Of a DNA stretch of 55,819 nt, positions 1 through 49,639 are shown one piece after another (position 1 is the stretch's first letter; each line of letters begins with the position of its first letter). Source of the stretch: Armatimonadota bacterium (GTDB lineage Bacteria; Armatimonadota; UBA5829). The notes below the pieces were generated by a model that saw only the letters and a list, made by a program, of their open reading frames with translations, was not told the DNA's origin and did no database searches. The DNA lies in assembly GCA_023474015.1 (NCBI GenBank), contig JAMCYN010000066.1:1-55819 (forward strand), given 5' to 3'. The position numbers and the translations under genes are program-made.

Positions 1-1775
1 GTTCCCTTAATCAGCACTCTGCCGATATGCCGCTGGTACTGTCCAGCCCAGTATCCCACTTCCTGGCTTATTTTGGTATAGAGCAGAGAGGCTTTTTCTC
101 TCTTCACTCTGCGCAGCGTATCAGAATCCTTTGACATTCGTTCCGCTTCATCGAAAAGCGCCGTGGCGTCGTCTACAAAATCCTTTGTCCAATATGGCGC
201 ATACGGTGACTTATCCTGAAACGGAGAATCGTTTCCTAATTGCCTTGTCCGAGCGTAGTTGGTCTCCCACAGCTTCCAAATGAGCATATTGTACTTCCAC
301 ATCGGCTCGGCGGCGTTTCCATAGTAGCCGTATATGAAGTCTTTCATCAACTCCAAGGTGTCAAGTGAAGGATCCCACATCTGCTTCGCCCAAACCCAGC
401 AGCGCATACGCGTGTTATCTGAGCCATGACATTCGACGTTCCCTTGGAGCATTATGCCTCTGGCGCCGTTCTTTATGTAGGTACGCATGTTCTCGCTGAC
501 TACCGGCATGTTGGGCATAATGGTCAGGTAGCCGCCGAAGTTGACCGTGTAGTCCCAGATGTGGATCCTGGCGCCTATAGCCGACCAGCCTTTCAGGGCC
601 TCGTATACCTTATCCGGACCGTCGGTGATGAATGTGAAAGGATGCGGCCAGGCATGAGCCTCCGTGCAGAACTGGATTGCCACATTGTGCCTCGGCTTTA
701 TGGTCTTTGGCGGAATAAATGTACCCAAATAGGCAAGGGTCGAGATGGACACATCCGGGAACTCACCCTCAATTGCCTCCGCCACCTTGTTTACGAAGGT
801 GATAAGCGAGCCCGCGTTTGTGCCTTCCCTGTCGTCTATAGCCTTGCAGCTCGGACACTCGCAGTAATTGAGTCCATCGTTTGGAGATACGCTTATCACT
901 CTGGCATTAGGCTTCTCACGAAGACTGCGCCTTACTTCATCAATCACAATGTTAAGCACATCGTTATTGGTCAGGCATAGCTGTCCCGTGTGTTGCCCTC
1001 CGACTCGCTTACCGTTGACCAAGGCATAGTACTCCGGATGGTCTTTGAAGTACTTCTCCCTGGGAAGAAACGCATCGAATGTGTGCACAAACATGGCATA
1101 TTCGAAATTGCCGCCCCACTCGGCAGGAACGGTGTCGTACGAGCTGTTCGCGCGGTTTCGCAGCGACCAGGTCTTGTCAAACGCCTCGAAATAGTATGGG
1201 TCTCGTATCTCAAGCACTGGAATGAAATGCCGGGGCACAGGTCTGAAACGCAGCTCCGGTCGGTTGGGAATGGTGGCCGAATCCTTGTCATACCACCTGC
1301 ATCCCAGGTCTTCCTCAAGAAGAGCATAGACAGCGTTGATGGGACCCCTGGTATTCCCGCCCCATAGATACAGGTTCTCTCCATTCGCCGCTATGGCATA
1401 ACCTTCTTCCTTCAGGTCGATCTTCGCGTCAGGGATGTTTGCATTGAGGAAGAGTTCAGTCTTACCGATGCTGATCAGCGGGTGCGTGGAACGGTAGTAT
1501 CTACCCTCGTGTACAACAGGGAAATCAGCCCCGGTTATCTCCTTAAGCCACTGTGCCAGGTCAGTGGCTGCTTTTTCTTCCTGGGTAGTGGCCTTTTCGG
1601 ACAGAAGGATTATGTAGTTCGCTTTCCCCCCGGATGCCAGCACAAGCTCAGGTCCCGGCTTGCCCTTGGGCTTCAGAGTATTTTTCCAGCCTTTGGCAAA
1701 ACCCGCCGCGTGGCAGTCACAGCCCAGCAATACGATCAAACTTAGAACCATCAAGGTGCGTACGCAATTCATCAT
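1..1775 (-). CDS. DUF4838 family secreted protein, left copy, C-terminus off the edge
   Basis: The reading frame is open from the ATG ATG at 1775 to the window edge and is collinear with the complete paralog at 2245-4773 (offset about 2998 bp). I checked the frame at several divergent spots, including 415-460, where residues differ but no stop or shift appears. The protein begins with a hydrophobic signal sequence, followed by the GH67-N/DUF4838-like domain. Upstream of the start is AAGGAG-ACTA-ATG, a good ribosome-binding site that the right copy has lost. Family members are secreted and occur in polysaccharide loci of Armatimonadota, Planctomycetes and Verrucomicrobia. No catalytic activity can be read from the sequence. 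About 250 C-terminal residues lie outside the window. Confidence 0.85.
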   Translation of the reverse strand, partial: MMNCVRTLMVLSLIVLLGCDCHAAGFAKGWKNTLKPKGKPGPELVLASGGKANYIILLSEKATTQEEKAATDLAQWLKEITGADFPVVHEGRYYRSTHPLISIGKTELFLNANIPDAKIDLKEEGYAIAANGENLYLWGGNTRGPINAVYALLEEDLGCRWYDKDSATIPNRPELRFRPVPRHFIPVLEIRDPYYFEAFDKTWSLRNRANSSYDTVPAEWGGNFEYAMFVHTFDAFLPREKYFKDHPEYYALVNGKRVGGQHTGQLCLTNNDVLNIVIDEVRRSLREKPNARVISVSPNDGLNYCECPSCKAIDDREGTNAGSLITFVNKVAEAIEGEFPDVSISTLAYLGTFIPPKTIKPRHNVAIQFCTEAHAWPHPFTFITDGPDKVYEALKGWSAIGARIHIWDYTVNFGGYLTIMPNMPVVSENMRTYIKNGARGIMLQGNVECHGSDNTRMRCWVWAKQMWDPSLDTLELMKDFIYGYYGNAAEPMWKYNMLIWKLWETNYARTRQLGNDSPFQDKSPYAPYWTKDFVDDATALFDEAERMSKDSDTLRRVKREKASLLYTKISQEVGYWAGQYQRHIGRVLIKG

Positions 1776-1804
1776 TAGTCTCCTTAGTGGCGGCCTCGTA
1801 GTCG

Positions 1805-2246
1805 TCAATTCTCCAGCAAGTAGGTGACTTCGCCGGTATCCGCTGATCTTTCGGCGGCGAAGCACAATTTCATTGTCTCGTAGGCATCCCGCGCCGTTGT
1901 TTTTGGAGGCTCTCCCTCAGCCACGCGCCTCACTATGTCACACGCCTGGCCCACGGTATTATGGAAATAAAGCTGATCCTCGGACGAGTCCCAAGTCAAG
2001 TTTTCTACCCAGTTGCAGTCCAAACCTTCTTCGCCGTCGAAAAAATCCCAACGCTTTATCGTTCGCTCGAAAACGTTTGTAGCCGCCGCGCCTTTCGTTC
2101 CGTAAACCAGATACTCGATCTTCCAGCCGTCCCGAAGTTCGTATCGAGAACCTGTCTCCCAACTCGCGGAGACGTTCCTCACACAAGTCCACAGCCAGTA
2201 TCTCTCTGACCCTCGGGCAACGCAGAAGATGCTTCATCAAATCTTC
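1805..2246 (-). pseudogene. Internally deleted Gfo/Idh/MocA oxidoreductase remnant
   Basis: This is a broken copy of the oxidoreductase at 4810-5877. Positions 1805-2118 match its C-terminal part and 2119-2246 match its N-terminal part. Positions 5118-5713 of the intact copy (596 bp) are missing. Because 596 is not a multiple of three, the two halves lie in different frames: the N-terminal piece (HLLRCPRVREILAVDL...) cannot be joined to the C-terminal piece (YLVYGTKGAAATN...). The start codon and the Rossmann GAGAMG motif are also absent, because homology stops at 2246, where the stop of the next DUF4838 gene begins. No NAD-binding enzyme can be made. It sits directly upstream of the left DUF4838 copy, as the intact gene does with the right copy. 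Confidence 0.85.
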
Positions 2247-4773
2247 ATTGTGTCTTGAGCGTTGTTCGATCTTCCCTGGCCAGAGCATCTATCCAGGTCC
2301 CCGGCTCGATCAAGTTCGCCTGGATAAGCGTCCACAGATTTTCCGCGTCTGTTTGCTCGGTATCACTTGCGACCAGGAATACCGGACCCCATAGTCCTAT
2401 CATCTCGGGTGCCCAGCCTCTGACTATCCTCAGCGATAGCAGGTTCTCTTCCTTTGGATTCAGGAATGGCGCGGCATCACAAGCTAACGGCGCAAGCCAA
2501 TCAGAAGTTGGCTCGAAAGCTTTCTTCCCATTGATGAAGATGGTCATCTTGTCCGCACCAGGTCTTCTAAAGTATATATACAGATGCTTCTTTCCGACAA
2601 GCTCGGCTGGGATCTTGATGCTCTGCCTATACCAACCAATGCCGGTGTAGCCCTGTACGGGTTTGAGCCATCCGGTTTGAGGATAGTCGGACAATCCCCA
2701 GTTCTCCCATCCGCGACCCCAATCGGGCTCGATGTTGGCCCAATCAGCATCGTCGACAGTTGGAAGATACCAGCCGCCGTCTGCGCCTTCATTTCTTGGA
2801 TCGTACTTGAACTTCCAGTGCTTACTCAGCTTGTGCGAGGTGAGAGTTCGTGGAATCTCCATTCGAAGAAGCTCTCGCCACTTGTCGATCATAGTCTGGG
2901 CCGGACCTCCGTAAACCCCAAAAGAGACATTACCCTCAGCTTTGACAATCCGTTCGAACTCATCAATCATGCGCTCGCACTCGTGCTTCTGTTGCTGAGT
3001 TCCCGCAATCAGCACCCTGCCGACGTGCAGCAGCTTTGTTCCATCCCAGTATCCCACTTCCTGGCTTATCTTGGTATAGAGCAGAGAGGCTTTTTCTCTC
3101 TTCACTCTGCGCAGCGTATCAGAATCCTTTGACATTCGTTCCGCTTCATCGAAAAGCGCCGTGGCGTCGTCTACAAAATCCTTTGTCCAATATGGCGCAT
3201 ACGGTGACTTATCCTGAAACGGAGAATCGTTTCCTAATTGCCTTGTCCGAGCGTAGTTGGTCTCCCACAGCTTCCAAATGAGCATATTGTACTTCCACAT
3301 CGGCTCGGCGGCGTTTCCATAGTAGCCGTATATGAAGTCTTTCATCAACTCCAAGGTGTCAAGTGAAGGATCCCACATCTGCTTCGCCCAAACCCAGCAG
3401 CGCATGCGCGCGTTATCTGAGCTGGGAACTACGCTGGTCCCTTCAAGCATTATGCCTCTGGCGCCGTTCTTTATGTAGGTACGCATGTTCTCGCTGACTA
3501 CCGGCATGTTGGGCATAATGGTCAAGTAGCCGCCGAAGTTGACCGTGTAGTCCCAGATGTGGATCCTGGCGCCTATAGCCGACCAGCCTTTCAGGGCCTC
3601 GTATACCCTGTCCGGACCGTCGGTGACGAATGTGAAAGGATGCGGCCAGGCATGAGCCTCCGTGCAGAACTGGATTGCCACATTGTGCCTCGGCTTTATG
3701 GTCTTTGGCGGCACAAACGTACCACAATAGGCAAGGGTCGAGACGGACACGTCCGGGAACTCACTTTCAATTGCCTCCGCTACCTTGTTTACGAAAGCTA
3801 TAAGCGTGCCGGCGTTTGTGCCTTCCCTGTCGTCTATGGCCTTGCAGCTCGGGCACTCGCAGTATTGTATGTTGTCGTTTGGCGATACGCTTATCACTCT
3901 GGCATTAGGCTTCTCACGAAGACTGTGCTTTACTTCGTCAGTCACAATGTTCAGCACATCGTTATTGGTCAGGCACAACTGTCCCGTGTACTGCCCTCCG
4001 ACTCGCTTACCGTTGACCAAGGCATAGTACTCCGGATGGTCTTTGAAGTACTTCTCCCTGGGAAGAAACGCATCGAATGTGTGCACAAACATGGCGTACT
4101 CGAAATTGCCGCCCCACTCAACGGGGACGGTGTCATATGTGCTGTTCGTGCGGTTTCTCAGCGACCATGTCTTGTCAAATGCCTCGAAATAGTAAGGGTC
4201 TCGTATCTCAAGCAATGGAATGAAATGCCGGGGCACAGGTCTGAAACGCAGCTCCGGTCGGCTGGGAATGGTGGCCGAATCCTTGTCATACCACCTACAT
4301 CCCAGGTCTTCCTCAAGAAGAGCATAGACAGCGTTGATGGGTCCCCTGGTATTCCCGCCCCATAGATACAGGTTCTCTCCCTTCGCCGCTATGGCATAAC
4401 CTTCTTCCTTCAGGTCGATCTTCGCGTCAGGGATGTTCGCATTGAGGAAGAGTTCAGTCTTACTGATGCTGATCAGCGGGTGCGTGGAACGGTAGTATCT
4501 ACCCTCGTGTACAACAGGGAAATCAGCCCCGGTTATCTCCTTAAGCCACTGTGCCAGGTCAGTGGCTGCTTTTTCTTCCTGGGTAGTGGCCTTTTCGGAC
4601 AGAAGGATTATGTAGTTCGCTTTCCCCCCGGATGCCAGCACAAGCTCAGGCCCCGGCTTGCCCTTGGGCTTCAGAGCATTTTTCCAGCCTTTGGCAAAAC
4701 CCGCCGCGTGGCAGTCACAGCCCAGCAATACGATCAAACTTAGAACCATCAAGGTGCGTACGCAATTCATCAT
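2245..4773 (-). CDS. DUF4838 family secreted protein (putative carbohydrate-active)
   Basis: The product is 842 aa. Residues 1-24 form a signal peptide containing LLGC, a possible lipobox. Residues ~45-160 resemble the alpha-glucuronidase N-terminal (GH67N-like) fold, with the WGGNTRGPINAVYALLEE segment typical of DUF4838 proteins. The middle (~190-500) holds the barrel-like region with VSPNDNIQYCECPSC. Residues ~690-815 look like a beta-sandwich carbohydrate-binding domain (LYIYFRRPGADKMTIFINGK). The gene follows the Gfo/Idh gene by 36 bp, so the two are probably co-transcribed. The start lacks the AAGGAG site of the left paralog and has AGAGAAAA instead. A role in binding or cleaving a plant sugar polymer is inferred; the substrate is unknown. 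Confidence 0.85.
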   Translation of the reverse strand: MMNCVRTLMVLSLIVLLGCDCHAAGFAKGWKNALKPKGKPGPELVLASGGKANYIILLSEKATTQEEKAATDLAQWLKEITGADFPVVHEGRYYRSTHPLISISKTELFLNANIPDAKIDLKEEGYAIAAKGENLYLWGGNTRGPINAVYALLEEDLGCRWYDKDSATIPSRPELRFRPVPRHFIPLLEIRDPYYFEAFDKTWSLRNRTNSTYDTVPVEWGGNFEYAMFVHTFDAFLPREKYFKDHPEYYALVNGKRVGGQYTGQLCLTNNDVLNIVTDEVKHSLREKPNARVISVSPNDNIQYCECPSCKAIDDREGTNAGTLIAFVNKVAEAIESEFPDVSVSTLAYCGTFVPPKTIKPRHNVAIQFCTEAHAWPHPFTFVTDGPDRVYEALKGWSAIGARIHIWDYTVNFGGYLTIMPNMPVVSENMRTYIKNGARGIMLEGTSVVPSSDNARMRCWVWAKQMWDPSLDTLELMKDFIYGYYGNAAEPMWKYNMLIWKLWETNYARTRQLGNDSPFQDKSPYAPYWTKDFVDDATALFDEAERMSKDSDTLRRVKREKASLLYTKISQEVGYWDGTKLLHVGRVLIAGTQQQKHECERMIDEFERIVKAEGNVSFGVYGGPAQTMIDKWRELLRMEIPRTLTSHKLSKHWKFKYDPRNEGADGGWYLPTVDDADWANIEPDWGRGWENWGLSDYPQTGWLKPVQGYTGIGWYRQSIKIPAELVGKKHLYIYFRRPGADKMTIFINGKKAFEPTSDWLAPLACDAAPFLNPKEENLLSLRIVRGWAPEMIGLWGPVFLVASDTEQTDAENLWTLIQANLIEPGTWIDALAREDRTTLKTQ

Positions 4774-4809
4774 TAGTTTTCTCTAGTGGCGGCCTCGTAG
4801 TCGTCAATT

Positions 4810-5877
4810 CTACAGCAAGTAGGTGACTTCGCCGGTATCCGCTGATCTTTCGGCTGCGAAGCACAATTTCATTGTCTCGTAGGCATCCCGCGCCGTTGTT
4901 TTTGGAGGCTCTCCCTCAGCCACGCGCCTCACTATGTCACACGCCTGGTCCACGGTATTATGGAAATAAAGCTGATCCTCGGACGAGTCCCAAGTCAAGT
5001 TTTCTACCCAGTTGCAGTCCAAACCTTCTTCGCCGTCGGAAAATTCCCAGCGCTTTATCGTTCGCTCGAAAACGTTTGTAGCCGCCGCGCCTTTCGTTCC
5101 ATAAACCAGATACTCGAGATGATGGCCATCTCCCAACTGCTGGTCGACAGCATTTGTTAAAGGGTCGCCCTTAAAGGAGGCCGCCGGCGCCATCGCGAAC
5201 GTAAGGTGACTGACAGCTCCATTTCCGAACTTGTAAGTCGTGTGGTAGTTGTCCCGCACTTCAAAGTATGGCACTACGTTCGGAGCACACACCGAATAAA
5301 CCTCGGTCACCTTGTCCCCTATCCACCAGCGGGGCAAGTCCACGTAATGGCTGAGCTTCTCACCGAACATCCCGCCTCCGGTCGACTTCTTTGTGCGCCA
5401 CGATCCCTTTCTATGAAACTCGCTGCATATGTAGTAGCAATGAGTGTTGACTACCTCTCCGAGCAGACCTGCGTCTATCCACTCTTTCACCTTGGTGTAG
5501 AGCTTGGAATATCGAAGCTCAAAGCCTATCTGCAGGAATGCGTTACGCTCCTCGGCGAACTCGACCATTTCCAGAGCATCTTCCAGACTAGTGGCAATCG
5601 GCTTCTCGCACATCACGGCCTTCCCAGCTTCCAAAGACCGCAGAGTCAGCTCTTTATGTGTATGGTTGGGCGACGTCACGAATACCAGCGGTAAGGTCTT
5701 GTCTGACAGCACGTCTTCCAGCCGTCCCGAAGTTCGTATCGGGAATTTGTCCCCTAACTCGCGGAGACGCTCCTCTCTTAAGTCCACAGCCAGTATCTCT
5801 CTGACCCCCGGGCAATGCAGAAGATGTTTTATCAAATCTTCGCCCATTGCGCCGGCACCTAATACTCCAACTCTCAT
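4810..5877 (-). CDS. Gfo/Idh/MocA family oxidoreductase
   Basis: The product is a 355-aa NAD(P)-dependent sugar or inositol-type dehydrogenase. The N-terminal Rossmann motif is VGVLGAGAMGEDL, and the family's catalytic EKP motif is present as VMCEKPIATSLEDA (residue ~90). The C-terminal alpha/beta domain includes GGMFGEKLSHYVDLPRWWIGD. The ATG at 5877 is preferred because GGGAGG lies upstream; the GTG at 5898 would precede that site. The gene leads into the DUF4838 gene 36 bp downstream. A truncated copy exists at 1805-2246, which makes this the functional copy. Substrate specificity in this family cannot be read from sequence; sugar oxidation is inferred from the neighbouring carbohydrate genes. 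Confidence 0.9.
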   Translation of the reverse strand: MRVGVLGAGAMGEDLIKHLLHCPGVREILAVDLREERLRELGDKFPIRTSGRLEDVLSDKTLPLVFVTSPNHTHKELTLRSLEAGKAVMCEKPIATSLEDALEMVEFAEERNAFLQIGFELRYSKLYTKVKEWIDAGLLGEVVNTHCYYICSEFHRKGSWRTKKSTGGGMFGEKLSHYVDLPRWWIGDKVTEVYSVCAPNVVPYFEVRDNYHTTYKFGNGAVSHLTFAMAPAASFKGDPLTNAVDQQLGDGHHLEYLVYGTKGAAATNVFERTIKRWEFSDGEEGLDCNWVENLTWDSSEDQLYFHNTVDQACDIVRRVAEGEPPKTTARDAYETMKLCFAAERSADTGEVTYLL

Positions 5878-9451: not shown

Positions 9452-10275
9452 AGAAGCGATCCTGGAGAATGCTGCCGTCTTATGTCTGCTTGATTGTGCT
9501 GGGGGCCATGTTCTCGGTCCCGTTCTTCTGGCTGGTCACAACATCGTTCAAGACGAATGACAACATCAACTGCTGGCCGCCCCAGATCATCCCAAGCCCG
9601 TGGACAACGCAGCACTATGTTTATGGAACAAAGGGCATACCTTTCGGTTTATACCTGGCCAACACCCTGCTGATCTGCGCGCTGTGCACCATAGGGACGG
9701 TCATTTCTAGCTCCCTGGTCGCCTACGGCCTATCGAGGATACGCTGGAAGGGCCGGGACGTGCTGTTCTGGGTGGTTCTCTCGACCATGATGCTGCCGTA
9801 CCAAGTGGTGATGGTTCCTCTATTTGCCGTCTTCACGAAACTAGGATGGGTGGACACCTACCTGCCGCTTACTGTCCCGGCGTTTCTGGGCAACGCCTTC
9901 TTCATATTCCTGCTGCGGCAGTTCTTCATGACCGTACCTCCGGCTCTCACCGAGGCCGCCAAGCTCGACGGCTGCAGCGAGTTCCAAATATATCGCATAG
10001 TGATACTGCCTCTGGCGAAGCCCGCGCTGGCAACGGTCGGCCTGTTTACATTCATCAACACTTGGAACGACTTTCTGGGTCCTTTGATCTATCTGTTTGA
10101 CGAGAGCAAATATACGCTATCCCTGGGCTTGCAGATGTTTCTGGGCCAGTACGGCAACTACTTCGGGAGGCTGATGGCGGTCTCGACACTGGTGGTGATC
10201 CCGATCATAGTGCTGTTCTTCTTCGCGCAGAAGACATTCATCCAGGGCATAACCATGACCGGAGTAAAGGAGTAG
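9448..10275 (+). CDS. Sugar ABC transporter permease (MalG/UgpE type)
   Basis: The 275-aa inner-membrane protein has the EAA motif LTEAAKLDGCSEFQIYRIVI near residue 172. AGGAGAGGCAAG precedes the ATG. It pairs with the upstream permease. The transcript probably continues into the multi-hairpin repeat 9 bp after the stop, which could act as a terminator or processing barrier. The C-terminus (KTFIQGITMTGVKE) is typical of the family, so the gene is full length. Confidence 0.92.
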   Translation: MKKRSWRMLPSYVCLIVLGAMFSVPFFWLVTTSFKTNDNINCWPPQIIPSPWTTQHYVYGTKGIPFGLYLANTLLICALCTIGTVISSSLVAYGLSRIRWKGRDVLFWVVLSTMMLPYQVVMVPLFAVFTKLGWVDTYLPLTVPAFLGNAFFIFLLRQFFMTVPPALTEAAKLDGCSEFQIYRIVILPLAKPALATVGLFTFINTWNDFLGPLIYLFDESKYTLSLGLQMFLGQYGNYFGRLMAVSTLVVIPIIVLFFFAQKTFIQGITMTGVKE

Positions 10276-10283
10276 CCGTAAGC

Positions 10284-10532
10284 AAGTTCAGTTCTGCGGG
10301 AATTATCCGAGGGTTTCACCCTCAGACTCCCATAAGGGGCTCCGCCCCTTAACCCCGCAAGGAAACAAGTGTTTCCTTGACCTTCCCACGCTGTCGTTGT
10401 ATGGGGTATCCCTGGATACCCCATACAACGACAGAAGCCGGGGGTCCAGGGGCCACTCGGCTCCTGGCAGAGTCCAGAGACAGAGTCTCTGGTGGGGATT
10501 GGGGCAAAGCCCCAAATAGCTCCCGACTGAAG
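10284..10532 (+). repeat. Multi-hairpin structured element, copy A
   Basis: This 249-bp intergenic element has a second copy at 15569-15816. Terminal arms TTCAGT (10287-10292) and ACTGAA (10526-10531) can close it. Inside are successive hairpins: GAGGG/CCCTC at 10309-10323; AAGGGGC/GCCCCTT at 10334-10350; AAGGAAAC/GTTTCCTT at 10359-10378; a perfect 21-bp palindrome arm pair at 10391-10434; a 9-bp stem with one G-U pair starting CCAGGGG; CCAGAGAC/GTCTCTGG; and TTGGGGC/GCCCCAA. It lies between the permease gene and the PocR/AraC regulator. No protein is encoded in it. Whether it acts as RNA, as a DNA mobile element, or as a compound terminator is open. Confidence 0.85.
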
Positions 10533-10594
10533 TCTTTCCACTACGGGCGAACACTTGCTTCTTGCCCAATCTTCAGCTAGTATTGAATCACGCC

Positions 10595-11800
10595 ATGGTT
10601 ATCGAACACGACAATGACGTGGTCGGCTCTTGCCTGGGACCACCGGACCATATAAAGCCTGCATGCCGGTCTCTTGCTCGGAGATATAACGAGATGTGGG
10701 GGCTTCGTTGTACCCTCACCGACGCGCGGGGGAACACGGTGGCGCGGGACGCCGAGTCCGAGGCTCCGGAGGCCATTCCCGGTCACGTGCCGTCGCGCGG
10801 GAGGGCTATCGAGGAGGCGCTGCGATGGGGGGAGCCTTCCATGCTCCTTTGCCCGAAGGGGTTTGTCGTTTGGGCCGTGCCGGTGATGGAGAACTCAATG
10901 GTGGTCGGCGGGCTGGTGGTGGAGCAGGTGTCCGTCGGGGCGCGCGATGAGGGCAAGTGGACCCTCTCACCCATGGAAATCCGCCACGCCGCCCGAGACC
11001 TTCTGACCCTGGCTGAGGAATACAACCTCACGAACGCCGCCCTCCTGGAACTTCGCAGGGCCGCCGCCGCGCGCGAGTCGGAACGGGCCGAAGTCATCCG
11101 GGAACTCAAAGAGATCAACTACCAGTCCATCCGCGACATCTACCTCAAGGAAGAACCCGGACTCATCTCCGCTATCAAGCGCGGAGACCGTGCCTCCGCC
11201 CGCGAGATCATCAACCGCATCCTGGCCGCGATCTACTTTTTTGGTCGGGAGCGCCCGAAGCTGCTCAAGAGTTTTATTTTGGAACTGGTCGTGAATATGT
11301 CCCGCAGCGCGGTCGAGGCCGGTGGGGACCCAAGTGAACTCCTGGGCGCGAACTACTCCTCATTCGCGGACCTTGCCCGCATCGACACCGAGGAAGAACT
11401 CTGCGCCTGGCTGGTCTCGATGCTCGAGCGCATGATGGACGCGATCAAGTCTAATCGCCAATATCCAAGCACGGTCCTCCTTGGCGAGGCCTTGAAATTC
11501 ATGCAGGAGCACATGCACGAGGAACTATCGCGCGACGTGATCGCCGACGTGGCGTGTCTCTCACCGTCGCACTTCAGCCGCGTGGTCAAGCAGACGTTCG
11601 GCCAGTCCTTCACCGAACTTCTTTCCCGGATGCGCGTAGACAAGGCCCGCGACCTCCTCGCCCGCACCGAAAAAAGCCTCATCCAAATTTGCCTCGACTG
11701 CGGCTTCTCCGATCAGAGCTACTTCACCAAAGTCTTCCAAAGATATACCGGGAGCACTCCGGGCGAGTATAGAAGGACGCACAGAGCCTTGGCGCGCTAA
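10595..11800 (+). CDS. AraC-family regulator with PocR-like sensory domain
   Basis: The 401-aa protein starts at the ATG at 10595; a TTG 33 bp upstream is possible. Residues ~20-130 resemble the PocR ligand-binding domain (CRSLARRYNEMWGLRCTLTD, then WAVPVMENSMVVGGLVVEQV). A helical linker follows. The last ~100 residues are a double helix-turn-helix of the AraC type (VACLSPSHFSRVVKQTFGQS, CGFSDQSYFTKVFQRYTGST, PGEYRR). PocR domains commonly sense small polyols or hydrocarbon-derived ligands. The neighbouring sugar importer upstream is the natural candidate target, but copy A of the structured repeat separates them. Confidence 0.85.
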   Translation: MVIEHDNDVVGSCLGPPDHIKPACRSLARRYNEMWGLRCTLTDARGNTVARDAESEAPEAIPGHVPSRGRAIEEALRWGEPSMLLCPKGFVVWAVPVMENSMVVGGLVVEQVSVGARDEGKWTLSPMEIRHAARDLLTLAEEYNLTNAALLELRRAAAARESERAEVIRELKEINYQSIRDIYLKEEPGLISAIKRGDRASAREIINRILAAIYFFGRERPKLLKSFILELVVNMSRSAVEAGGDPSELLGANYSSFADLARIDTEEELCAWLVSMLERMMDAIKSNRQYPSTVLLGEALKFMQEHMHEELSRDVIADVACLSPSHFSRVVKQTFGQSFTELLSRMRVDKARDLLARTEKSLIQICLDCGFSDQSYFTKVFQRYTGSTPGEYRRTHRALAR

Positions 11801-11816
11801 CCCGCGGTGAATGTGG

Positions 11817-12587
11817 CTAAGCGGCTTCGTTATCCGCCCGGGCAACCAGGATGGCGATACCATTCTCCTCCATCTGCTCCCTGTCGACTGGCGAGAGCTG
11901 AGAGTCGGTTATAAGCGTATGCACCTGATCGACAGTGGCATAACGCGCGAACGCCCTTCGGCCGAACTTGCCGCTCTCGGTGACCACCACTACCTTGTCA
12001 GCTATGCGAATCATTGCCTGTTCCAGGCTGGAGATGTGCAGGTCGTTGGAGTAGAACCCGGTCCGGCTGTCGGCTCCATCGCACCCAATAAAAAGGACAT
12101 CCACGCGGAGGTCGTTGAGCAGCTTTTCTGTCATCGGTCCATAGACACTTGGAAACTCATGGCGCAGAAAGCCCCCCAGAAGCAGAACGTTGACTGAGGA
12201 GTCATACAGGTCCTGCGCGACACATAAGGATGTGGTGGCGACGGTGATTCCCATATCCTGCGGCAGATGGCGGGCCACTTCAAGAGCCGTCGTGCCCGTA
12301 TCGATCATCACGGTCTGTCCCGGAGCCACGAGTCCCGCGGCGAGTTTGCCTATGGCTGCCTTGATCTGTGTTGCCTGGTAGTTAGGCAGGCCCATCTGAA
12401 TGAACCTCAGTCTGCCTGTCGATACCGCTCCACCGTGCGTGCGGAGAGCCAGCCCTTGTTTCTGCAGTTCGTCCAAGTCGCGGCGAACGGTCATCTCCGA
12501 GACGGCAAATCGGATCGCCAATTCCCGCACATTGACCTGCCGGGCCTGCTCCAGAAGTTCCAGTATTGCTGTCTTGCGAGTATCCAT
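11817..12587 (-). CDS. DeoR-family transcriptional regulator
   Basis: The 256-aa protein begins MDTRKTAILELLEQ, with the DeoR helix-turn-helix at residues ~18-45 (VNVRELAIRFAVSEMTVRRD) and the family tag LALRTHGGAV. The C-terminal sugar-phosphate sensor domain contains MIDTGTTALEVARHLP and FIGCDGADSRTGFYSNDL. The start at 12587 has AGAAGG 4 nt upstream; the frame extends to 12614 without a better site. It is transcribed divergently from the aminotransferase, and palindromes lie in between, so it probably represses itself and/or the aminotransferase in response to a phosphorylated sugar. Confidence 0.92.
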   Translation of the reverse strand: MDTRKTAILELLEQARQVNVRELAIRFAVSEMTVRRDLDELQKQGLALRTHGGAVSTGRLRFIQMGLPNYQATQIKAAIGKLAAGLVAPGQTVMIDTGTTALEVARHLPQDMGITVATTSLCVAQDLYDSSVNVLLLGGFLRHEFPSVYGPMTEKLLNDLRVDVLFIGCDGADSRTGFYSNDLHISSLEQAMIRIADKVVVVTESGKFGRRAFARYATVDQVHTLITDSQLSPVDREQMEENGIAILVARADNEAA

Positions 12588-12598
12588 GGCACCTTCTG

Positions 12599-12613
12599 TG
12601 TTAGATTCTAACA
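12599..12613. promoter_or_regulatory. 15-bp palindrome at the DeoR gene start
   Basis: TGTTAGA-T-TCTAACA is a perfect inverted repeat 12 bp upstream of the regulator's start codon. The position fits an autoregulatory operator. Binding by the adjacent DeoR protein is inferred. Confidence 0.5.
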
Positions 12614-12678
12614 TGAATGATATGCCAAGGCCGCTCAGTATGTCAAGCGAATTGCCGGAAAATCACGACTGCGGGGTC

Positions 12679-12735
12679 TTGACAAGCGCTCCGGAGGGGA
12701 TTATCATAAATAACAGAGTCGGTGATATATATCAC
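12679..12735 (+). promoter_or_regulatory. Promoter and palindromic operator of the aminotransferase gene
   Basis: TTGACA at 12679-12684 and TATCAT at 12702-12707 are spaced by 17 bp, a near-consensus sigma-70 promoter. A perfect 14-bp palindrome, GTGATATATATCAC, lies at 12722-12735, just after the expected start of transcription, where a bound repressor would block the polymerase. The divergent DeoR gene makes it the obvious candidate regulator. Confidence 0.65.
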
Positions 12736-12780
12736 ACACTCACACACAGGCTGCGCGTAGAGATCAGAGGAGGACTTAGC

Positions 12781-14178
12781 ATGGCGGTAGAGACTTCTAC
12801 AACACTCAAGATGGGCCGATACGACCCCACACCATACAATCTCGACCTGAGCAAGTGGCCACACCTCGTCACCAGTGAGATTCCCGGCCCAAAAAGCAAG
12901 GAGATGCACGCCAAGGCCAGCGAGTATATCCGGGGACTTTCGGGACAGGTGAAGCTGTTCCCCGTCGTATTCGAAAAGGGCCTGGGCTGCACCATGGAGG
13001 ACGTGGACAGCAACCAGTACATCGACTTTTCCTCCGGCATCTACGTCACTACCCTGGGCCACTGCCATCCCAAGGTTTCCGAGGCTGTGGCGAAAGCCGC
13101 CAACACCCTGATGAACGCGCACGACTTCACGACGCCCGTCAAAGTCAAGCTCCTTGAGAAGATGAGCGAGGTCCTGCCGGGCGATCTCAAGGGCATCCAG
13201 CTATATGACTCAGGGACAACGGCCGTCGAAGCCGGCCTGCGCACGTGCCGGGCCGCCACGGGCAAGTATGAGTTCATCTCCTGCTTCAGGGACTTCCACG
13301 GCAAGAGCGGCCATTCCATGAGCCTTGCCAATATGACCAAGCTCTCAGGGTCGGGCAGGGCGCAGGGCTTCTATATGGTCCCCAGGCCCGACACATACAG
13401 GCCGTGGTGGACCCGCGAAGATGGTTCGCTGGATACCGAGAAGTACCTCGAGTTCTACGCCTCCTTCATCGAAAACGGCACTACTAATCAGGTCGCGGCA
13501 TTCTGCCTCGAGCCGATCCAAGGGTGGGGCGGATCGATTATGCCGCCTGATGACTTCTTCCCGAAGCTCTCGAAGTTTTGCAAGGAGCGCGGCATATTGC
13601 TGATGGCTGATGAAGTATTGACGAGCATGGGCCGCACGGGCAAGTACCTTTGTATGGAGCACTGGGATGTAGTGCCGGATGTCGTAACATTAGGCAAGGG
13701 CTTCGGCAACGGCTTCCCTGTGACTGCCATGGTCGTTCGGGAAGAGTATGCCGACGCGGTAGATAAGATAAGCGCATCCACAAGCTACGGCGGAAACCCG
13801 ATGGCCTGCGCCGCCGCCCTGGCAAGCATTGAAGTCATCGAGGAAGAGGGGCTGCTCGATCATGCGAAGGAGCTTGAGGACCTGTTCAGAGACAAGATGG
13901 CCGATTGGCCCAGCAAGTATGCAATCGTCGGGGACTGCCGGGTCAAGGGCTGCCTGATGGGGGTAGAGTTGGTCAAGGACAAGAAGACCAAGGAGCCGTT
14001 CGACGAAGCCGGCAAACTTGTCTACCAGACCGCCTTCCGAAAGGGCCTGGCTTGGATTCCCGCGGGCCATATCCTGCGCATGAGCCCGCCGATTATTATG
14101 CCCAATGAAGTAGCCGCGAAGGCAATGGATATCATTGAGGAGTCGATCGCCGAAGTTCAGACGAAGCTCGGGTATTAA
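12781..14178 (+). CDS. Class III PLP-dependent aminotransferase
   Basis: The 465-aa enzyme belongs to the 4-aminobutyrate/acetylornithine aminotransferase fold. The PLP lysine is K306 in VTLGKGFGNGFPVT. ADEVLTSMGRTGKYL supplies the cofactor-binding aspartate, and DSGTTAVEAGLR the phosphate-binding region. The frame is open much further upstream (to 12400), but GAGGAGG 8 nt before the ATG at 12781 and the promoter at 12679 fix the start. It moves an amino group from an omega-amino acid, amino alcohol or amino sugar derivative to a 2-oxo acid. The exact substrate is unknown. The DeoR neighbour and the Gfo/Idh gene downstream suggest a sugar-derived compound. Confidence 0.9.
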   Translation: MAVETSTTLKMGRYDPTPYNLDLSKWPHLVTSEIPGPKSKEMHAKASEYIRGLSGQVKLFPVVFEKGLGCTMEDVDSNQYIDFSSGIYVTTLGHCHPKVSEAVAKAANTLMNAHDFTTPVKVKLLEKMSEVLPGDLKGIQLYDSGTTAVEAGLRTCRAATGKYEFISCFRDFHGKSGHSMSLANMTKLSGSGRAQGFYMVPRPDTYRPWWTREDGSLDTEKYLEFYASFIENGTTNQVAAFCLEPIQGWGGSIMPPDDFFPKLSKFCKERGILLMADEVLTSMGRTGKYLCMEHWDVVPDVVTLGKGFGNGFPVTAMVVREEYADAVDKISASTSYGGNPMACAAALASIEVIEEEGLLDHAKELEDLFRDKMADWPSKYAIVGDCRVKGCLMGVELVKDKKTKEPFDEAGKLVYQTAFRKGLAWIPAGHILRMSPPIIMPNEVAAKAMDIIEESIAEVQTKLGY

Positions 14179-14210
14179 AGACTTTTACTTTATGGTGCGA
14201 CGTACCGACC

Positions 14211-14313
14211 CTTGTCATTCTGAGTGTAGCGAAGAATCTGCTTTGCACCGAAGGCTTGGTAGTGATAATGCACTTCGGTTCAAAGCAGATCCTTCGTTCC
14301 TCAGGATGACAAG
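14211..14313. repeat. 103-bp palindromic REP/MITE-like element
   Basis: The ends are inverted: CTTGTCATTCTGAG at 14211 and CTCAGGATGACAAG ending at 14313. The inner arms also pair (GAATCTGCTTTG with CAAAGCAGATCC; CACCGAAG with CTTCGGT). The whole unit can fold into one long imperfect hairpin. Elements with this GTCATTCTGAG...AGGATGAC design recur between genes in many bacteria (from memory). It sits after the aminotransferase stop and may also act as a terminator. Confidence 0.65.
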
Positions 14314-14335
14314 ATTGCGGCGTCCATTGTGTCCT

Positions 14336-14360
14336 ATCAGTAGGTGGGCATCAGTAGGTG
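14336..14360. promoter_or_regulatory. 11-bp direct repeat before the oxidoreductase
   Basis: ATCAGTAGGTG occurs at 14336-14346 and again at 14350-14360, a 14-bp period. It lies about 50 bp upstream of the oxidoreductase start. Direct repeats of this kind can be sites for AraC-type activators, but no binding protein is shown. Confidence 0.3.
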
Positions 14361-14406
14361 TTTGAACCGCTGACACGCTGAATGGAATGAAGTGGGGGAG
14401 TCCAAA

Positions 14407-15570
14407 TTGAGAATCGTACGTTTTGGAATTATAGGCTGCGGCCTGATGGGCCGCGAGTTCGCGTCAGCGGCCGCCAGATGGATGCATTTACTGGAGATGG
14501 ATGCGCGGCCCGAGATCGTCGCCGTCTGCGACACAAGCGAGAAGATGCTCGCCTGGTTCACGGATAACTTTCCCTCCATCAAGCAATCGACCACCGACTA
14601 CAAGGAGCTTTTGTCTAACCCCGAAGTCGATGCTGTCTACTGTGCAGTCCCGCACAATCTCCACCAGCAGTTCTATTGTGATATCATCTCGGCTGGCAAG
14701 CATCTGATGGGCGAGAAGCCGTTCGGGATCAATAAGCCCGCGAATGACGCCATACTCGATTGTATCAAATCCCACCCGAACGTCTTCGTGCGCTGTTCGA
14801 GCGAGTTCCCGTTCATTCCAGCAATGCAGCGACTCTGCGATATGATCGAGCGTGAAGAGTTCGGCGAAATAATCGAGGTCGATACGGGCTTTAAGCACTC
14901 ATCCGATCTCGACACTTCTAAGCCGATCAATTGGAAACGCATGATCGCGTTCAATGGAGAATACGGATGCATGGGCGATCTGGGAATGCATGCGTGCCAC
15001 GTTCCGTTAAGGGCGGGTTGGAGGCCGGTCAACGTGAGGGCGATACTCTCCAATCTGGTCCCCGAGCGGCCCGATGGCAAGGGCGGGACCGCGCTGTGCG
15101 AGACTTGGGACAACGCCACGCTATTCTGCGAGACCATAAACCCCGCCGACGGCCGGCCCTTCCCCTGGACCATCAAGACCCAGAGGATAGCCCCTGGCGA
15201 GAAGGATAGCTGGTATTGCGAGGTCCTGGGAATGAAGCAGTGTGCCCGTTTCTCCTCGAAGGATACCAACACCATCCGGATATTGGATTATACACAGGGC
15301 ATCCTGAGCCCGTCGAAGGAACAGGCATGGCAGGTGATCGACATGGGTCATGAGACCGCCTTCAAGAGCATAACCGGAGGCATATTCGAGTTCGGCTTTT
15401 CTGACTCTATCCTTCAGATGTGGGCCGCGTATCTCTATGAGTTGGTTCACGGCAAGCCCATCAAGAAGTTCGCCGGCTGCGTGACTCCCGAGGAAACCGC
15501 CCTCAGCCACAAACTCTTCACAGCCGCATTGAAATCACAGCAAGACAGGTCCGCAGTGCCTATAGAATAA
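14407..15570 (+). CDS. Gfo/Idh/MocA family oxidoreductase
   Basis: The 387-aa dehydrogenase has the Rossmann motif FGIIGCGLMGREFASAA at the N-terminus and the catalytic-lysine motif GEKPFGINKPAND near residue 105. The substrate domain includes GYGCMGDLGMHACHVPLRAGW-like residues around 185-200. The TTG at 14407 is preferred because GGGGGAG lies 6 nt upstream; a GTG at 14392 is possible. Its stop codon TAA overlaps the first bases of structured repeat copy B. It is not closely similar to the enzyme at 4810. It may act with the aminotransferase to oxidise and aminate a keto-sugar; this is inference. Confidence 0.88.
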   Translation: MRIVRFGIIGCGLMGREFASAAARWMHLLEMDARPEIVAVCDTSEKMLAWFTDNFPSIKQSTTDYKELLSNPEVDAVYCAVPHNLHQQFYCDIISAGKHLMGEKPFGINKPANDAILDCIKSHPNVFVRCSSEFPFIPAMQRLCDMIEREEFGEIIEVDTGFKHSSDLDTSKPINWKRMIAFNGEYGCMGDLGMHACHVPLRAGWRPVNVRAILSNLVPERPDGKGGTALCETWDNATLFCETINPADGRPFPWTIKTQRIAPGEKDSWYCEVLGMKQCARFSSKDTNTIRILDYTQGILSPSKEQAWQVIDMGHETAFKSITGGIFEFGFSDSILQMWAAYLYELVHGKPIKKFAGCVTPEETALSHKLFTAALKSQQDRSAVPIE

Positions 15571-15816
15571 GTTCAGTTCTGCGAGAATTATCTGAGGGTT
15601 CACCCTCAGACTCCCATAAGGGGCTCCGCCCCTTAACCCCGCAAGGAAACAAGTGTTTCCTTGACATTCCTACCTCTGGGATTGTATGGGTATCATTAAG
15701 GATACCCATACAATCCCAGCAGCCGGGGGTCCAGGGAGAACTTCTCCCTGGCAGAGTCCAGAGACAGAGTCTCTGGTGGGGATTGGGGCAAAGCCCCAAA
15801 TACCTCCCGACTGAAG
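15569..15816 (+). repeat. Multi-hairpin structured element, copy B
   Basis: This 248-bp element is the second copy of the one at 10284-10532, in the same orientation. Closing arms are TTCAGT (15572-15577) and ACTGAA (15810-15815). The fixed hairpins are conserved. The long central palindrome (15676-15719, 19-bp arms, 6-nt loop) differs from copy A at several bases, and both arms change together. The CCAGGGAGAA/TTCTCCCTGG stem likewise replaces copy A's different 9-bp stem. It begins on the stop codon of the oxidoreductase and ends 24 bp before gcvT, so it lies in the leader or upstream region of the glycine-cleavage operon. Confidence 0.85.
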
Positions 15817-15840
15817 GAGCTGATTGTCGAGAGGTTGATC

Positions 15841-16923
15841 ATGAGAACCACGATCATACACGAAGTTCATTTGCGAGCAGGCGCGCGGATGGGTGAGTTT
15901 GCAGGCTGGAGCCTGCCCATGGACTACGGCGGCGTGCTGCGCGAAGTCCAAGCCGTGAGAACGGCGGCTGGGCTGTTTGACGTGAGCCACATGGGTCGGC
16001 TGGAGATATTCGGCGCCGATGCCGCCGACACGCTGCAGCGGCTGCTCACGAATGACTTGTCCCGCCTCTCCGACGGCGGCGGACAATATACGCTGATGTG
16101 CAACCCAGACGGCGGCGTGACCGACGACCTGATCGTCTTTCGTATGGCGGCCGACCGGTTCTACCTCGTGGTCAACGCCTCGAACCTCGACAAGGACAAG
16201 GCATGGATAACTAGAAACCTGCCCGGCTCGGCTGTGCTTGAGGACTGCACTCTGGACACAGCCATGTTCGCGCTTCAAGGCCCCAGGGCCGAGGCGATCA
16301 TGGTGGCCGCCGGAATGCCGAACACTCCGAATTTGTCGAGGTTTCACTTCGCCTGGGGAGATATTGCGGACAATAAGGTTCTTGTCCTGCGCACTGGTTA
16401 CACTGGTGAAGACGGGTTCGAAATCGTGTGCCGGAGCGAGTCGGCCGAAGCGGTCTGGAATGCTCTGATCGCTGCTGGCGGTAACCACGGTCTAACGCTA
16501 TGCGGCCTGGCCGCGCGCGATGTGCTGCGGATCGAGGCCGCGCTTCCCTTATACGGCCATGAGATAGACGAGCATATATCCCCCGTCGAAGCAGGGCTTA
16601 TGAGGTGGGTAAAGCTTGAAAAAGGCGACTTTGTGGGTAGGAAGCCCATAGCCGAGTTAGTCGACCGTGGCCCGAGCCGGAAGCTGATCGGGGTGGACAT
16701 GGCAGGCCGGTTCGTGCCGAGGGCGGGGGACACCGTCTCAGGCGAGCAAGGGCAGGGAGTGGTTGCGAGCGGCACATTCTCGCCGACGCTGGGAGTAGGA
16801 ATAGCGATGGCCTATATGCCGCCCGACGCGGAGGCCGGGACGCCCGTCGAAGTGATGATACACGACAAGCCGCGCCACGGTGTCTTGCGCAAGCTGCCAT
16901 TCTGTTCCAGAAAGAGGTTGTGA
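15841..16923 (+). CDS. gcvT: Glycine cleavage system T protein (aminomethyltransferase)
   Basis: The 360-aa protein releases ammonia from the aminomethyl group carried on the H protein and hands the carbon to tetrahydrofolate. It shows GEFAGWSLPMDYGGVLREV, VSHMGRLEIFG and the conserved folate-site region LRTGYTGEDGFEI. The ATG at 15841 follows GAGAGG by 6 nt; the TTG 6 bp earlier is less likely. The first gene of gcvT-H-PA-PB, it overlaps gcvH by one base (TGATG). No glycine riboswitch was recognised upstream, where structured repeat copy B lies instead. Confidence 0.95.
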   Translation: MRTTIIHEVHLRAGARMGEFAGWSLPMDYGGVLREVQAVRTAAGLFDVSHMGRLEIFGADAADTLQRLLTNDLSRLSDGGGQYTLMCNPDGGVTDDLIVFRMAADRFYLVVNASNLDKDKAWITRNLPGSAVLEDCTLDTAMFALQGPRAEAIMVAAGMPNTPNLSRFHFAWGDIADNKVLVLRTGYTGEDGFEIVCRSESAEAVWNALIAAGGNHGLTLCGLAARDVLRIEAALPLYGHEIDEHISPVEAGLMRWVKLEKGDFVGRKPIAELVDRGPSRKLIGVDMAGRFVPRAGDTVSGEQGQGVVASGTFSPTLGVGIAMAYMPPDAEAGTPVEVMIHDKPRHGVLRKLPFCSRKRL

Positions 16924-24457: not shown

Positions 24458-25468
24458 TCAGCAAAGGAACATTGCATCGCCGAAGCTAAGGAACCGATAT
24501 CTTTCCCGAATCGCCTCTTCGTATGCTCTTCGTATGAGTTCGGTGCCCTCGAACGCGCTGACCAGAATCAGCAGGGTCGATTTGGGCACATGAAAGTTTG
24601 TCACTAACGCCTCCACTATCTTGAAACTATATGGAGGCCTGATAAACAGGTTCGTCTCCCCGCCGCCTGCAGCCACCCGGCGCTTTCCGGTCGCCGCGCT
24701 TTCGAGGGCTCTCGCGGTGGTTGTGCCGACGCATACTATCCTGCCGGGAGCCGTATTGATCGCCTCGGCGCTTTCCGGGCTGATCTCATAAGACTCCGTA
24801 TGCATCTCGTGATCTTCAATATCCGCCGTGCGCACCGGCCTGAATGTTGCAATGCCGATGTGTAGTGTTACGTAGGCCGTCCGAATATCCCTGGCTTGTA
24901 TACGCTCCAGTAGGTCCGGAGTGAAGTGCAGTCCGGCAGTGGGCGCCGCCGCCGAGCCATCCGCCATGGCGTATACGGTCTGGTAGCGCTCCGGGTCCTC
25001 AAGCCGCTTGTGAATATACGGCGGCAAGGGGACTTGTCCGACGGATGCAATCACTTCGTCGGGATCGGGCCCATCCGTAAAATGCAAAATCCTGCCGCCC
25101 TCGGCGGTCCTGTCCACCACCTCCGCCCGCAGTCCACGTTCGAAGATCAGCAGCGAGCCGACTCCCACGCGCCGCCCGGGCTTGACCATAGCCTCCCAGA
25201 CGCGCGCGGAGTGCCGCTTCATTAGCAGGGCTTCGACCTTGCCCCCAGTCTCCTTCTGCCCAAAGAGCCTGGCGGCGACTACCCGGGTGTCATTGAAGAC
25301 CATCAGGTCATCATCTCTCAGGTAGTCGAGGATATCAAAGAACTTTTTGTGTTCCAGAGTCTGCTTGCGGCGGTCAACCACAAGTAAACGGGATTGGTCG
25401 CGCTCGGCGAGGGGTTCCTGCGCTATCAACTCCTCGGGCAGCGCGTAGTCAAAATCGGTTAAAAGCAT
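24458..25468 (-). CDS. queA: tRNA preQ1(34) S-adenosylmethionine ribosyltransferase-isomerase
   Basis: The 336-aa enzyme transfers the ribosyl part of SAM to preQ1 in the tRNA wobble position on the way to queuosine. [55 protein letters not shown] and VTNFHVPKSTLLILVSAF are family signatures. The gene is complete. Its first ~285 bp and upstream DNA are repeated exactly at 26104-27024, which creates a truncated second copy at 26093-26389. Confidence 0.97.
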   Translation of the reverse strand: MLLTDFDYALPEELIAQEPLAERDQSRLLVVDRRKQTLEHKKFFDILDYLRDDDLMVFNDTRVVAARLFGQKETGGKVEALLMKRHSARVWEAMVKPGRRVGVGSLLIFERGLRAEVVDRTAEGGRILHFTDGPDPDEVIASVGQVPLPPYIHKRLEDPERYQTVYAMADGSAAAPTAGLHFTPDLLERIQARDIRTAYVTLHIGIATFRPVRTADIEDHEMHTESYEISPESAEAINTAPGRIVCVGTTTARALESAATGKRRVAAGGGETNLFIRPPYSFKIVEALVTNFHVPKSTLLILVSAFEGTELIRRAYEEAIRERYRFLSFGDAMFLC

Positions 25469-25750
25469 TATTCAGGACCGAGGGAGATGAGCTCTACGAG
25501 GTGTGCAAGTTCCACAGCCCAAACCTATACGCTCAAGTCACCACCCGGCTATGATTGTATCCCCTGCGGGGTGCAATGTCAAGGTAAATACGGGTAATTC
25601 TCAGCCATAATGCTCTCACGAATTGAGCCAACTCTGGACTATTCGGCAATAACCGGCACACGGACATCCACTATATGACCAATTGCTAGCGAACGATGAC
25701 ATGTCGGGCGGGCGTGCTTTCAATTGGTGAGAAAGGGAGCGAGCGATTGC

Positions 25751-26103: not shown

Positions 26104-26389
26104 TGACCATAGCCTCCCAGACGCGCGCGGAGTGCCGCTTCATTAGCAGGGCTTCGACCTTGCCCCCAGTCTCCTTCTGCCCAAAGAGCCTGGCGGCGAC
26201 TACCCGGGTGTCATTGAAGACCATCAGGTCATCATCTCTCAGGTAGTCGAGGATATCAAAGAACTTTTTGTGTTCCAGAGTCTGCTTGCGGCGGTCAACC
26301 ACAAGTAAACGGGATTGGTCGCGCTCGGCGAGGGGTTCCTGCGCTATCAACTCCTCGGGCAGCGCGTAGTCAAAATCGGTTAAAAGCAT
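26093..26389 (-). pseudogene. Truncated queA copy (first 95 codons)
   Basis: The sequence is identical to the first ~95 codons of queA and keeps its start region. At the duplication join the frame reads on for three foreign codons (VWEAMV then TYL) and stops. The SAM-binding and catalytic parts are missing, so the product should be inactive. Its upstream DNA is the same as that of the intact gene, so it could still be transcribed. Confidence 0.85.
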
Positions 26390-26745
26390 TATTCAGGACC
26401 GAGGGAGATGAGCTCTACGAGGTGTGCAAGTTCCACAGCCCAAACCTATACGCTCAAGTCACCACCCGGCTATGATTGTATCCCCTGCGGGGTGCAATGT
26501 CAAGGTAAATACGGGTAATTCTCAGCCATAATGCTCTCACGAATTGAGCCAACTCTGGACTATTCGGCAATAACCGGCACACGGACATCCACTATATGAC
26601 CAATTGCTAGCGAACGATGACATGTCGGGCGGGCGTGCTTTCAATTGGTGAGAAAGGGAGCGAGCGATTGCGGAGTTGGGAGTGCGGAGTTCGGAGTGAA
26701 GGGACTCTTCCCCATTCCGCACTCCGCACTCATCACTCCGCACTT

Positions 26746-44787: not shown

Positions 44788-44882
44788 TGAACCCTATTGC
44801 ATTGACGGCAGGCCAGCGATCGATAGCAGATGCACCCCGAACTCCTCGTCCATCTCCCGCGAGGCGTCGATTCCCAGGAGTT
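44788..44882 (-). pseudogene. 3' fragment of a PPC/DUF296 gene
   Basis: About 95 bp match the 3' end of the gene at 49184-49639 with only a few differences, covering the codons for LGIDASREMDEEFGVHLLSI and the stop region. Only the last ~30 codons remain. It ends 8 bp from the stop of the GH95-like gene, marking a rearrangement breakpoint. Confidence 0.8.
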
Positions 44883-44889
44883 CACATTC

Positions 44890-49183: not shown

Positions 49184-49639
49184 TCAGTGCATTGACGGCA
49201 GGCTTGCGATCGATAGCAGATGCACCCCGAACTCTTCGTCCATCTCCCGCGAGGCGTCGATTCCCAGGAGTTCTATAATCACGACCTCCAGCACGAGATA
49301 CACCGACATCCCCGCGCGTGGGCATCCGACTATCGCGCCATTCTCGCGGCCCATCCCGGCGTGGAAGTGGAGCGACGGTTTGCCTTCCTGCGGAAAGAGC
49401 GTACCGACTCCAACCAGCTCGCGGGCGTCATTGAACTCTTCATAGTGCGGAATCACCTTGCCGTTCGGGTTTTCGGGGCCGGTCACGACCTTCCCCTTCC
49501 GTATCCCGCCGACAGCCATTACCGCCGCGCACCTGACGCCCTCACGGCCCGCGATCTCCTCGACCGCCTCATATATCGATTCACCATCTTCCAGCCGCGC
49601 GACGAACACGCGACCGAGTGTGCCTTGGGTATACTTCAT
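49184..49639 (-). CDS. PPC/DUF296 domain protein
   Basis: The 151-aa protein has the PCC fold: FVARLEDGESIYEAVEEIAG, KPSLHFHAGMGRENGAIVGC (conserved histidines that bind metal) and VIIELLGIDASREMDEEFGV. Bacterial members form trimers of unproven function. It is the last gene of the kinase-SIS-SIS-PPC operon (25 bp after the second SIS gene), suggesting a role in the same sugar pathway. A fragment of its 3' end recurs at 44788-44882. Confidence 0.88.
   Translation of the reverse strand: MKYTQGTLGRVFVARLEDGESIYEAVEEIAGREGVRCAAVMAVGGIRKGKVVTGPENPNGKVIPHYEEFNDARELVGVGTLFPQEGKPSLHFHAGMGRENGAIVGCPRAGMSVYLVLEVVIIELLGIDASREMDEEFGVHLLSIASLPSMH

Follow-up and report, generated by a model that had tools for sequence, protein, structure and literature searches.

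Two copies of a palindromic intergenic sequence, found in a 55,819-nt stretch of an Armatimonadota genome (in the following called the window), probably arose by insertion of a mobile, non-autonomous extragenic element composed of inverted triple-hairpin modules and a central palindrome. Direct support comes from the inverted architecture and the covariation of the stems and, in other phyla, from copy number, sharp copy edges and sites that are occupied in one genome and empty in others. From these relatives we infer that the window copies themselves may have been mobile.

Trimmed to the common ends TTCAGT...ACTGAAG, copy A spans positions 10287 to 10532 and copy B positions 15572 to 15816, both read on the plus strand and both present where the first-pass annotation of this DNA had placed them. 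Their alignment comprises 251 columns, of which 223 are identical, 17 are mismatches and 11 contain gaps. Both copies are predicted to fold as RNA far more stably than dinucleotide-shuffled sequences: copy A reaches -139.2 kcal/mol against a shuffle mean of -87.9 (z = -9.73) and copy B -135.5 kcal/mol against -79.7 (z = -10.81), values equaled by 0 of 200 shuffles in either case. Each fold is a row of seven hairpins, H1 to H7. Hairpins H2, H3, H6 and H7 are unchanged between A and B, in line with the at least four identical hairpins reported before. A search of the whole window against Rfam returned two tRNAs only, with nothing reaching the gathering score at A or B; the below-threshold matches there looked like chance, and we rejected the assignment to a known RNA family.

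Sequence, fold, the alignment of A with B and the comparison of their halves revealed that each copy consists of two triple-hairpin modules in inverted orientation with a long palindrome between them, a relationship that was missing from the first-pass annotation. In copy A, the left module (H3-H2-H1) lies on the minus strand at 10303 to 10387 and the right module (H5-H6-H7) on the plus strand at 10442 to 10516, flanking the central palindrome H4 at 10391 to 10434 (plus strand, 20 pairs, 4-nt loop). The arrangement in copy B is the same, with the left module at 15588 to 15671 (minus), H4 at 15676 to 15719 (plus, 19 pairs, 6-nt loop) and the right module, again H5-H6-H7, at 15727 to 15800 (plus). 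Fold and stem comparison delimited H4 in both copies. The two right modules conform to the triple-module pattern and were both training sequences for and matches to R1, a covariance model of the first two hairpins. The left halves did not belong to the training set of R1 and were matched by it on the minus strand, at 10330-10386 in copy A (E = 2.1e-9) and at 15614-15670 in copy B (E = 3.9e-8). Furthermore, the reverse-complemented left half resembled the right half more closely than 1000 of 1000 null sequences preserving the right-half hairpins, in each copy. Both halves can be read as hp1, linker, hp2, linker, hp3, TCCCG and an outer-end ACTGAA, with TCTCG replacing TCCCG in the left half of copy B. 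The alignment of the halves, together with the R1 matches on the left halves, thus defines the element as an inverted pair of modules around a long central palindrome.

Nine stem pairs differ between A and B, and pairing is kept in eight of them. Six were altered on both sides and are still paired, one pair was deleted from both arms, and one is G-T in one copy and G-C in the other. The ninth, in H1, is a broken C.A in copy A and T-A in copy B. The earlier statement that stems had changed on both arms together therefore applies to the six two-sided pairs and to the pair lost from both arms, but it had not listed the broken pair in H1 of copy A. The first-pass annotation had further taken the paired changes as a sign of selection, not just repeat drift. 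This interpretation is supported in part: its dismissal of mere drift was right, whereas a folded RNA as the target of selection is no more than a possibility. The paired changes between A and B alone are insufficient to argue for such selection, because they form two blocks of three adjacent pairs in which four of the six double changes are purine-pyrimidine flips, for which there is no route through G-U, and this is the pattern expected from DNA template switching or from exchange within the repeat family.

The module has relatives in the intergenic regions of some unrelated bacteria, where they lie scattered; their distribution is broad yet patchy. Searching the genome collection with an exact pattern yielded 22 stretches, 15 of them from Candidatus Faecivivens stercoravium, 4 from another uncultured Clostridia bacterium, 1 from an Oscillospiraceae bacterium and 2 from Candidatus Magnetaquicoccus inordinatus, which belongs to the Magnetococcia. 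The hairpin located 3′ of the part fixed by the pattern was itself unconstrained, and in 16 of the 20 Clostridia stretches its 19 bases equal those of the window. R1, trained on 17 of 19 distinct sequences (those of L018 and L021 were excluded), matched 38 of 398 Pseudomonadota genomes, 36 of them in the class of Magnetaquicoccus and 2 outside, as well as 3 of 398 Bacillota genomes. In a fuller search of the class, 40 of 48 Magnetococcia genomes had matches; the positive genomes include the seed genomes G002 and G004. The number of matches per Magnetococcia genome reached a maximum of at least 117, with only 1 to 6 in several genomes; high copy number was thus seen in this class, and the window holds two copies in 55.8 kb. 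Plasmid and phage collections gave only partial matches, in 6 and 5 records, none of which spans most of the element. The best of these is an unverified 7.9-kb contig from human feces, deposited as phage, in which the triple module is present.

These additional copies covary, in line with the prediction of the first-pass annotation for further copies. In alignment A2 (17 sequences), 7 of 17 pairs show two-sided change and 99.3% of the cells are paired. For A3, with 47 distinct modules from 32 loci, the values are 15 of 17 pairs and 99.0%, although this alignment was fitted to the model and therefore leans towards it. The triple modules in A5 show two-sided change in 12 of 23 pairs, with 97.8% paired; A5 combines 20 of the 44 triple modules found by pattern with both left halves from the window, and the row L054, misaligned in hp1, was retained. 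In each of these three alignments, neither the observed covariation score nor the percentage paired was reached by any of 500 shuffles, and structures slid along the alignment were at most 66% paired. Another measure in A5, the number of further pair types, was matched by 64 of 500 shuffles. Covariation would likewise arise if the palindromes were maintained at the DNA level or if a DNA single strand were recognized in its folded form, and it does not separate these cases from selection on an RNA.

The kinds of substitutions bear on this distinction. Transitions predominate among the double changes in hp2 (49, against 11 flips), the outcome expected if pairs pass through G-U, and flips predominate in hp1 (69, against 33). 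Here and in the mismatch tallies, sequences rather than events were counted. On the module strand, G.T mismatches outnumber A.C mismatches by 21 to 4 in A3 and by 8 to 3 in A4; for the 24 distinct hp1 types the ratio is 13 to 1. This excess hints at a constraint on the folded strand beyond mobility, and to that extent counts against a purely mobile element. However, 11 of the 13 G.T mismatches in hp1 fall on one recurring position, and with this position set aside A2 contains no G.T and two A.C.

The strong covariation, the transitions in hp2, the G.T excess and the bias towards gene 3′ ends described below would all suit a functional structured RNA, such as a small RNA or an element of the 3′ UTR acting in processing or stability, in which the fold is selected and dispersal is secondary. 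We regard this reading, which was that of the first-pass annotation, as unlikely. Besides the concentration of G.T at a single position and the prevalence of flips in hp1, it has to accommodate the occurrence of both module orientations within one element, the location of the window copies in unrelated gene rows, the lack of an Rfam family, the three-pair blocks of mostly flipped pairs between A and B, and the fact that in other genomes the module is an inserted repeat of high copy number.

Alternatively, A and B could be old repeat copies in which template switching or gene conversion, acting between arms or between family members, maintains the palindromes at the DNA level, with no selection on the fold. 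Template switching has been reported to produce multibase compensatory changes (PMC8794818), which agrees with the blocks of neighboring pairs between A and B and with hp1 tips that change chiefly by flips. Still, the Clostridia copies and copy A retain the G.T wobble that recurs at position 6 of hp1, and copying between arms alone does not explain the conservation of linkers and hairpin feet from phylum to phylum. We therefore consider this explanation quite improbable.

Comparisons of homologous sites favor the reading as a mobile element. At the tmk locus, a module is present in the Magnetococcia genome G093, whereas five of six other genomes have an empty or compact site and the sixth, G089, gave no match. 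The spacing of the flanks is 13, 34, 35, 41 and 89 nt in the five genomes and 154 to 206 nt in G093, and the GGGTCCAG module is absent from the tmk gap in the five genomes with aligned flanks. At a second locus, 26 nt in G145 correspond to 727 nt in G093, which there carries two inverted modules; the stretch seen of G069 contains no module, and the gaps of G002 and G109 hold modules of their own kind. Both loci are more simply explained by insertion in G093 than by loss elsewhere. Two further searches for empty sites were uninformative: for L105, only short pieces of one flank were matched elsewhere, and for L083 no other genome had both flanks on one contig. The copies also have sharp edges, as conservation among the Magnetococcia rows drops to near zero roughly 8 nt ahead of the two-hairpin core and roughly 21 nt beyond it, and copies within G093 are up to 99% identical. 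Another dispersed repeat, about 150 bp long (L083:4122-4271), is present at many places in G093 with 94-99% identity. We take it to resemble the CGTC-type or dRS3 palindromes, so that G093 seems to hold two kinds of repeats.

Modules frequently occur as inverted pairs. Among 31 module pairs lying at most 700 bp apart, 25 are inverted, including the two pairs in the window. In 21 of these 25 pairs hp3 points inward, whereas hp1 points inward in the window pairs, a point against the reading as a mobile element. Both copies in the window end in the terminal inverted repeats TTCAGT / ACTGAA. The trinucleotide AAG flanks both ends in A and B, but a duplication and a conserved end would look alike here, and the lack of a clear target-site duplication is another point against mobility.

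Within the genomes, modules are mostly situated at gene 3′ ends. In 40 stretches from the Magnetococcia class plus the window, gaps of at least 60 nt with a match made up 14 of 23 convergent, 23 of 76 same-direction and 7 of 25 divergent gaps, and the gene upstream of the 73 matches ran with the module in 43 cases and against it in 22, with no upstream gene in view in 1 case and 7 matches within predicted ORFs; all these counts are rough, because the stretches were picked around matches, gene calling relied on simple ORFs and the two members of an inverted pair are not independent. The preference for convergent gaps, together with T-runs adjoining some Magnetococcia copies, might suggest transcription terminators or attenuators that resemble each other by convergence. 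This we consider very improbable, since linkers outside the stems are common to several phyla and the copies in the window lack terminator-like sites. Two such sites were detected within 10000-16100, both elsewhere, and an intrinsic terminator, a GC-rich hairpin followed by a T-run, was accordingly rejected for A and B.

Copy A has a sugar ABC permease gene on one side and a gene for an AraC-type regulator on the other. The neighbors of copy B are gcvT and the gene of a Gfo/Idh/MocA oxidoreductase, the stop codon of the latter lying a single base ahead of the element. Among 120 listed homologs of this oxidoreductase, seven carry the name of an organism, which is Armatimonadota or Armatimonadetes in six cases and just 'bacterium' in one. 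The oxidoreductase ends where the five homologs inspected end, hence its gene was not cut by copy B. The gene rows around A and B are unrelated to each other. As stated in the first-pass annotation, no transposase is attached: a Pfam analysis of the 15 proteins encoded between 4810 and 22129 found none.

We compared the element with known families of extragenic palindromes. According to PMC3116915, REPINs and BIMEs are likewise extragenic, palindromic and non-autonomous, form inverted doublets with a spacer and hairpins in single-stranded DNA or mRNA, and occur in high copy number, which for our element applies to the relatives only. The left and right halves in the window form such an inverted doublet of palindromic units. 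However, each module has three hairpins and a core of about 75 nt in place of one short REP, the window copies contain a long central palindrome, and an association with a Y1 transposase is lacking. A Y1_Tnp (RAYT) domain was found in 20 of 26 element-rich and in 15 of 20 match-free genomes, drafts that are possibly incomplete, and in 0 of the 3 module-bearing Clostridia. The presence of the module thus does not track Y1_Tnp, and we rejected a link to Y1/RAYT enzymes for the genomes compared; that this comparison yielded no candidate mobilizing enzyme is a further point against the mobile-element reading.

The GTAG and CGTC super-families of REPs share with our element the occurrence in several phyla, dimers in opposite orientation and a location mostly in convergent and same-direction gaps near gene 3′ ends, and CGTC REPs are said to have no dedicated transposase (PMC3733652). 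They differ in their conserved tag, absent from the window copies, and in unit structure, ours being a triple hairpin whose linkers are of the type YRGRGT / TGGGGN. GTAG, CGTC and GACG are all absent within A and B, and CTAC occurs once, in B only. The terms Magnetococcus, Armatimonadetes and Clostridi do not appear in the main text of PMC3733652. A G-quadruplex in the linkers was also considered and rejected, as the window linker CAGAGT contains no G-run. MITEs are short, non-coding elements with inverted ends. Our element, at about 246 bp, non-coding and bounded by TTCAGT/ACTGAA, is similar to them, but it is not known to have a parent transposon and shows no clear target-site duplication. 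It is best read as acting like a REPIN, BIME or MITE, without the GTAG/CGTC tags and without association to a Y1 (RAYT-type) transposase. In open full-text papers in PubMed Central, the sequence ggggcaaagcccc had no match and a search combining magnetococc and palindrom gave no title on this repeat; as far as this literature shows, the repeat has apparently not been described previously.

For the element read as mobile, we suggest that a trans-supplied enzyme recognizes the module in its folded, single-stranded form. Such recognition would account for hairpin feet and linkers that are conserved despite freely varying stem tips. What moves would be the inverted pair, as has been proposed for REPINs (PMC3116915). 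Copies would accumulate at gene 3′ ends because insertions there are presumably the least harmful and survive; at these places they would probably be transcribed together with the gene and fold, and any influence on the ends or the stability of the RNA would be secondary. More tentatively, and as a conjecture that may well fail, the module could stand for a class of mobile hairpin clusters in at least three phyla, moved by a trans-acting non-Y1 enzyme that reads feet and linkers on one folded strand, the stem tips being rewritten blockwise on both arms. The element adds a distinct repeat to the extragenic palindromes, one that is abundant in certain lineages and has no link to the transposase to which the spread of the known ones is ascribed. 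Moreover, two-sided stem changes, commonly accepted as proof of a functional RNA, may here have arisen from events at the DNA level. The Magnetococcia genomes with many copies make both the question of the mobility enzyme and that of RNA versus DNA testable.

A looser pattern detected seven stretches in viral contigs, six of which contain hp1-hp2 pairs; two tight patterns had zero matches there. The seventh, L170, lacks the hairpin stems and was discarded as a probable chance match. In L166, L167, L169, L171 and L172, a GGCCCCTC.. motif precedes the hp1-hp2 modules by at most about 60 nt and CCTT follows them; CGCCgAAGGCG accompanies the motif in four of the five, and some modules lie close to the contig end. 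Judged from these sequences, the viral form appears to be another lineage-specific form of the module. In the Sulfolobus tengchongensis plasmid pTC (L055:1501-1525), 25 bp are identical to the H2 region of copy A (E = 2e-2), which may be due to chance.

The window also contains several other repeats. Long direct repeats within positions 1-5841 (1-300/2999-3298, 95%; 1785-2084/4784-5083, 98%; 2119-2246/5714-5841, 90%) look like the duplication of a stretch of about 3 kb. The segments 25183-25482 and 26104-26403 are identical over at least 300 nt at a spacing of 921 bp, and 44798-44883 and 49188-49273 form an 86-nt direct repeat of 97% identity with 4.4 kb between its copies.
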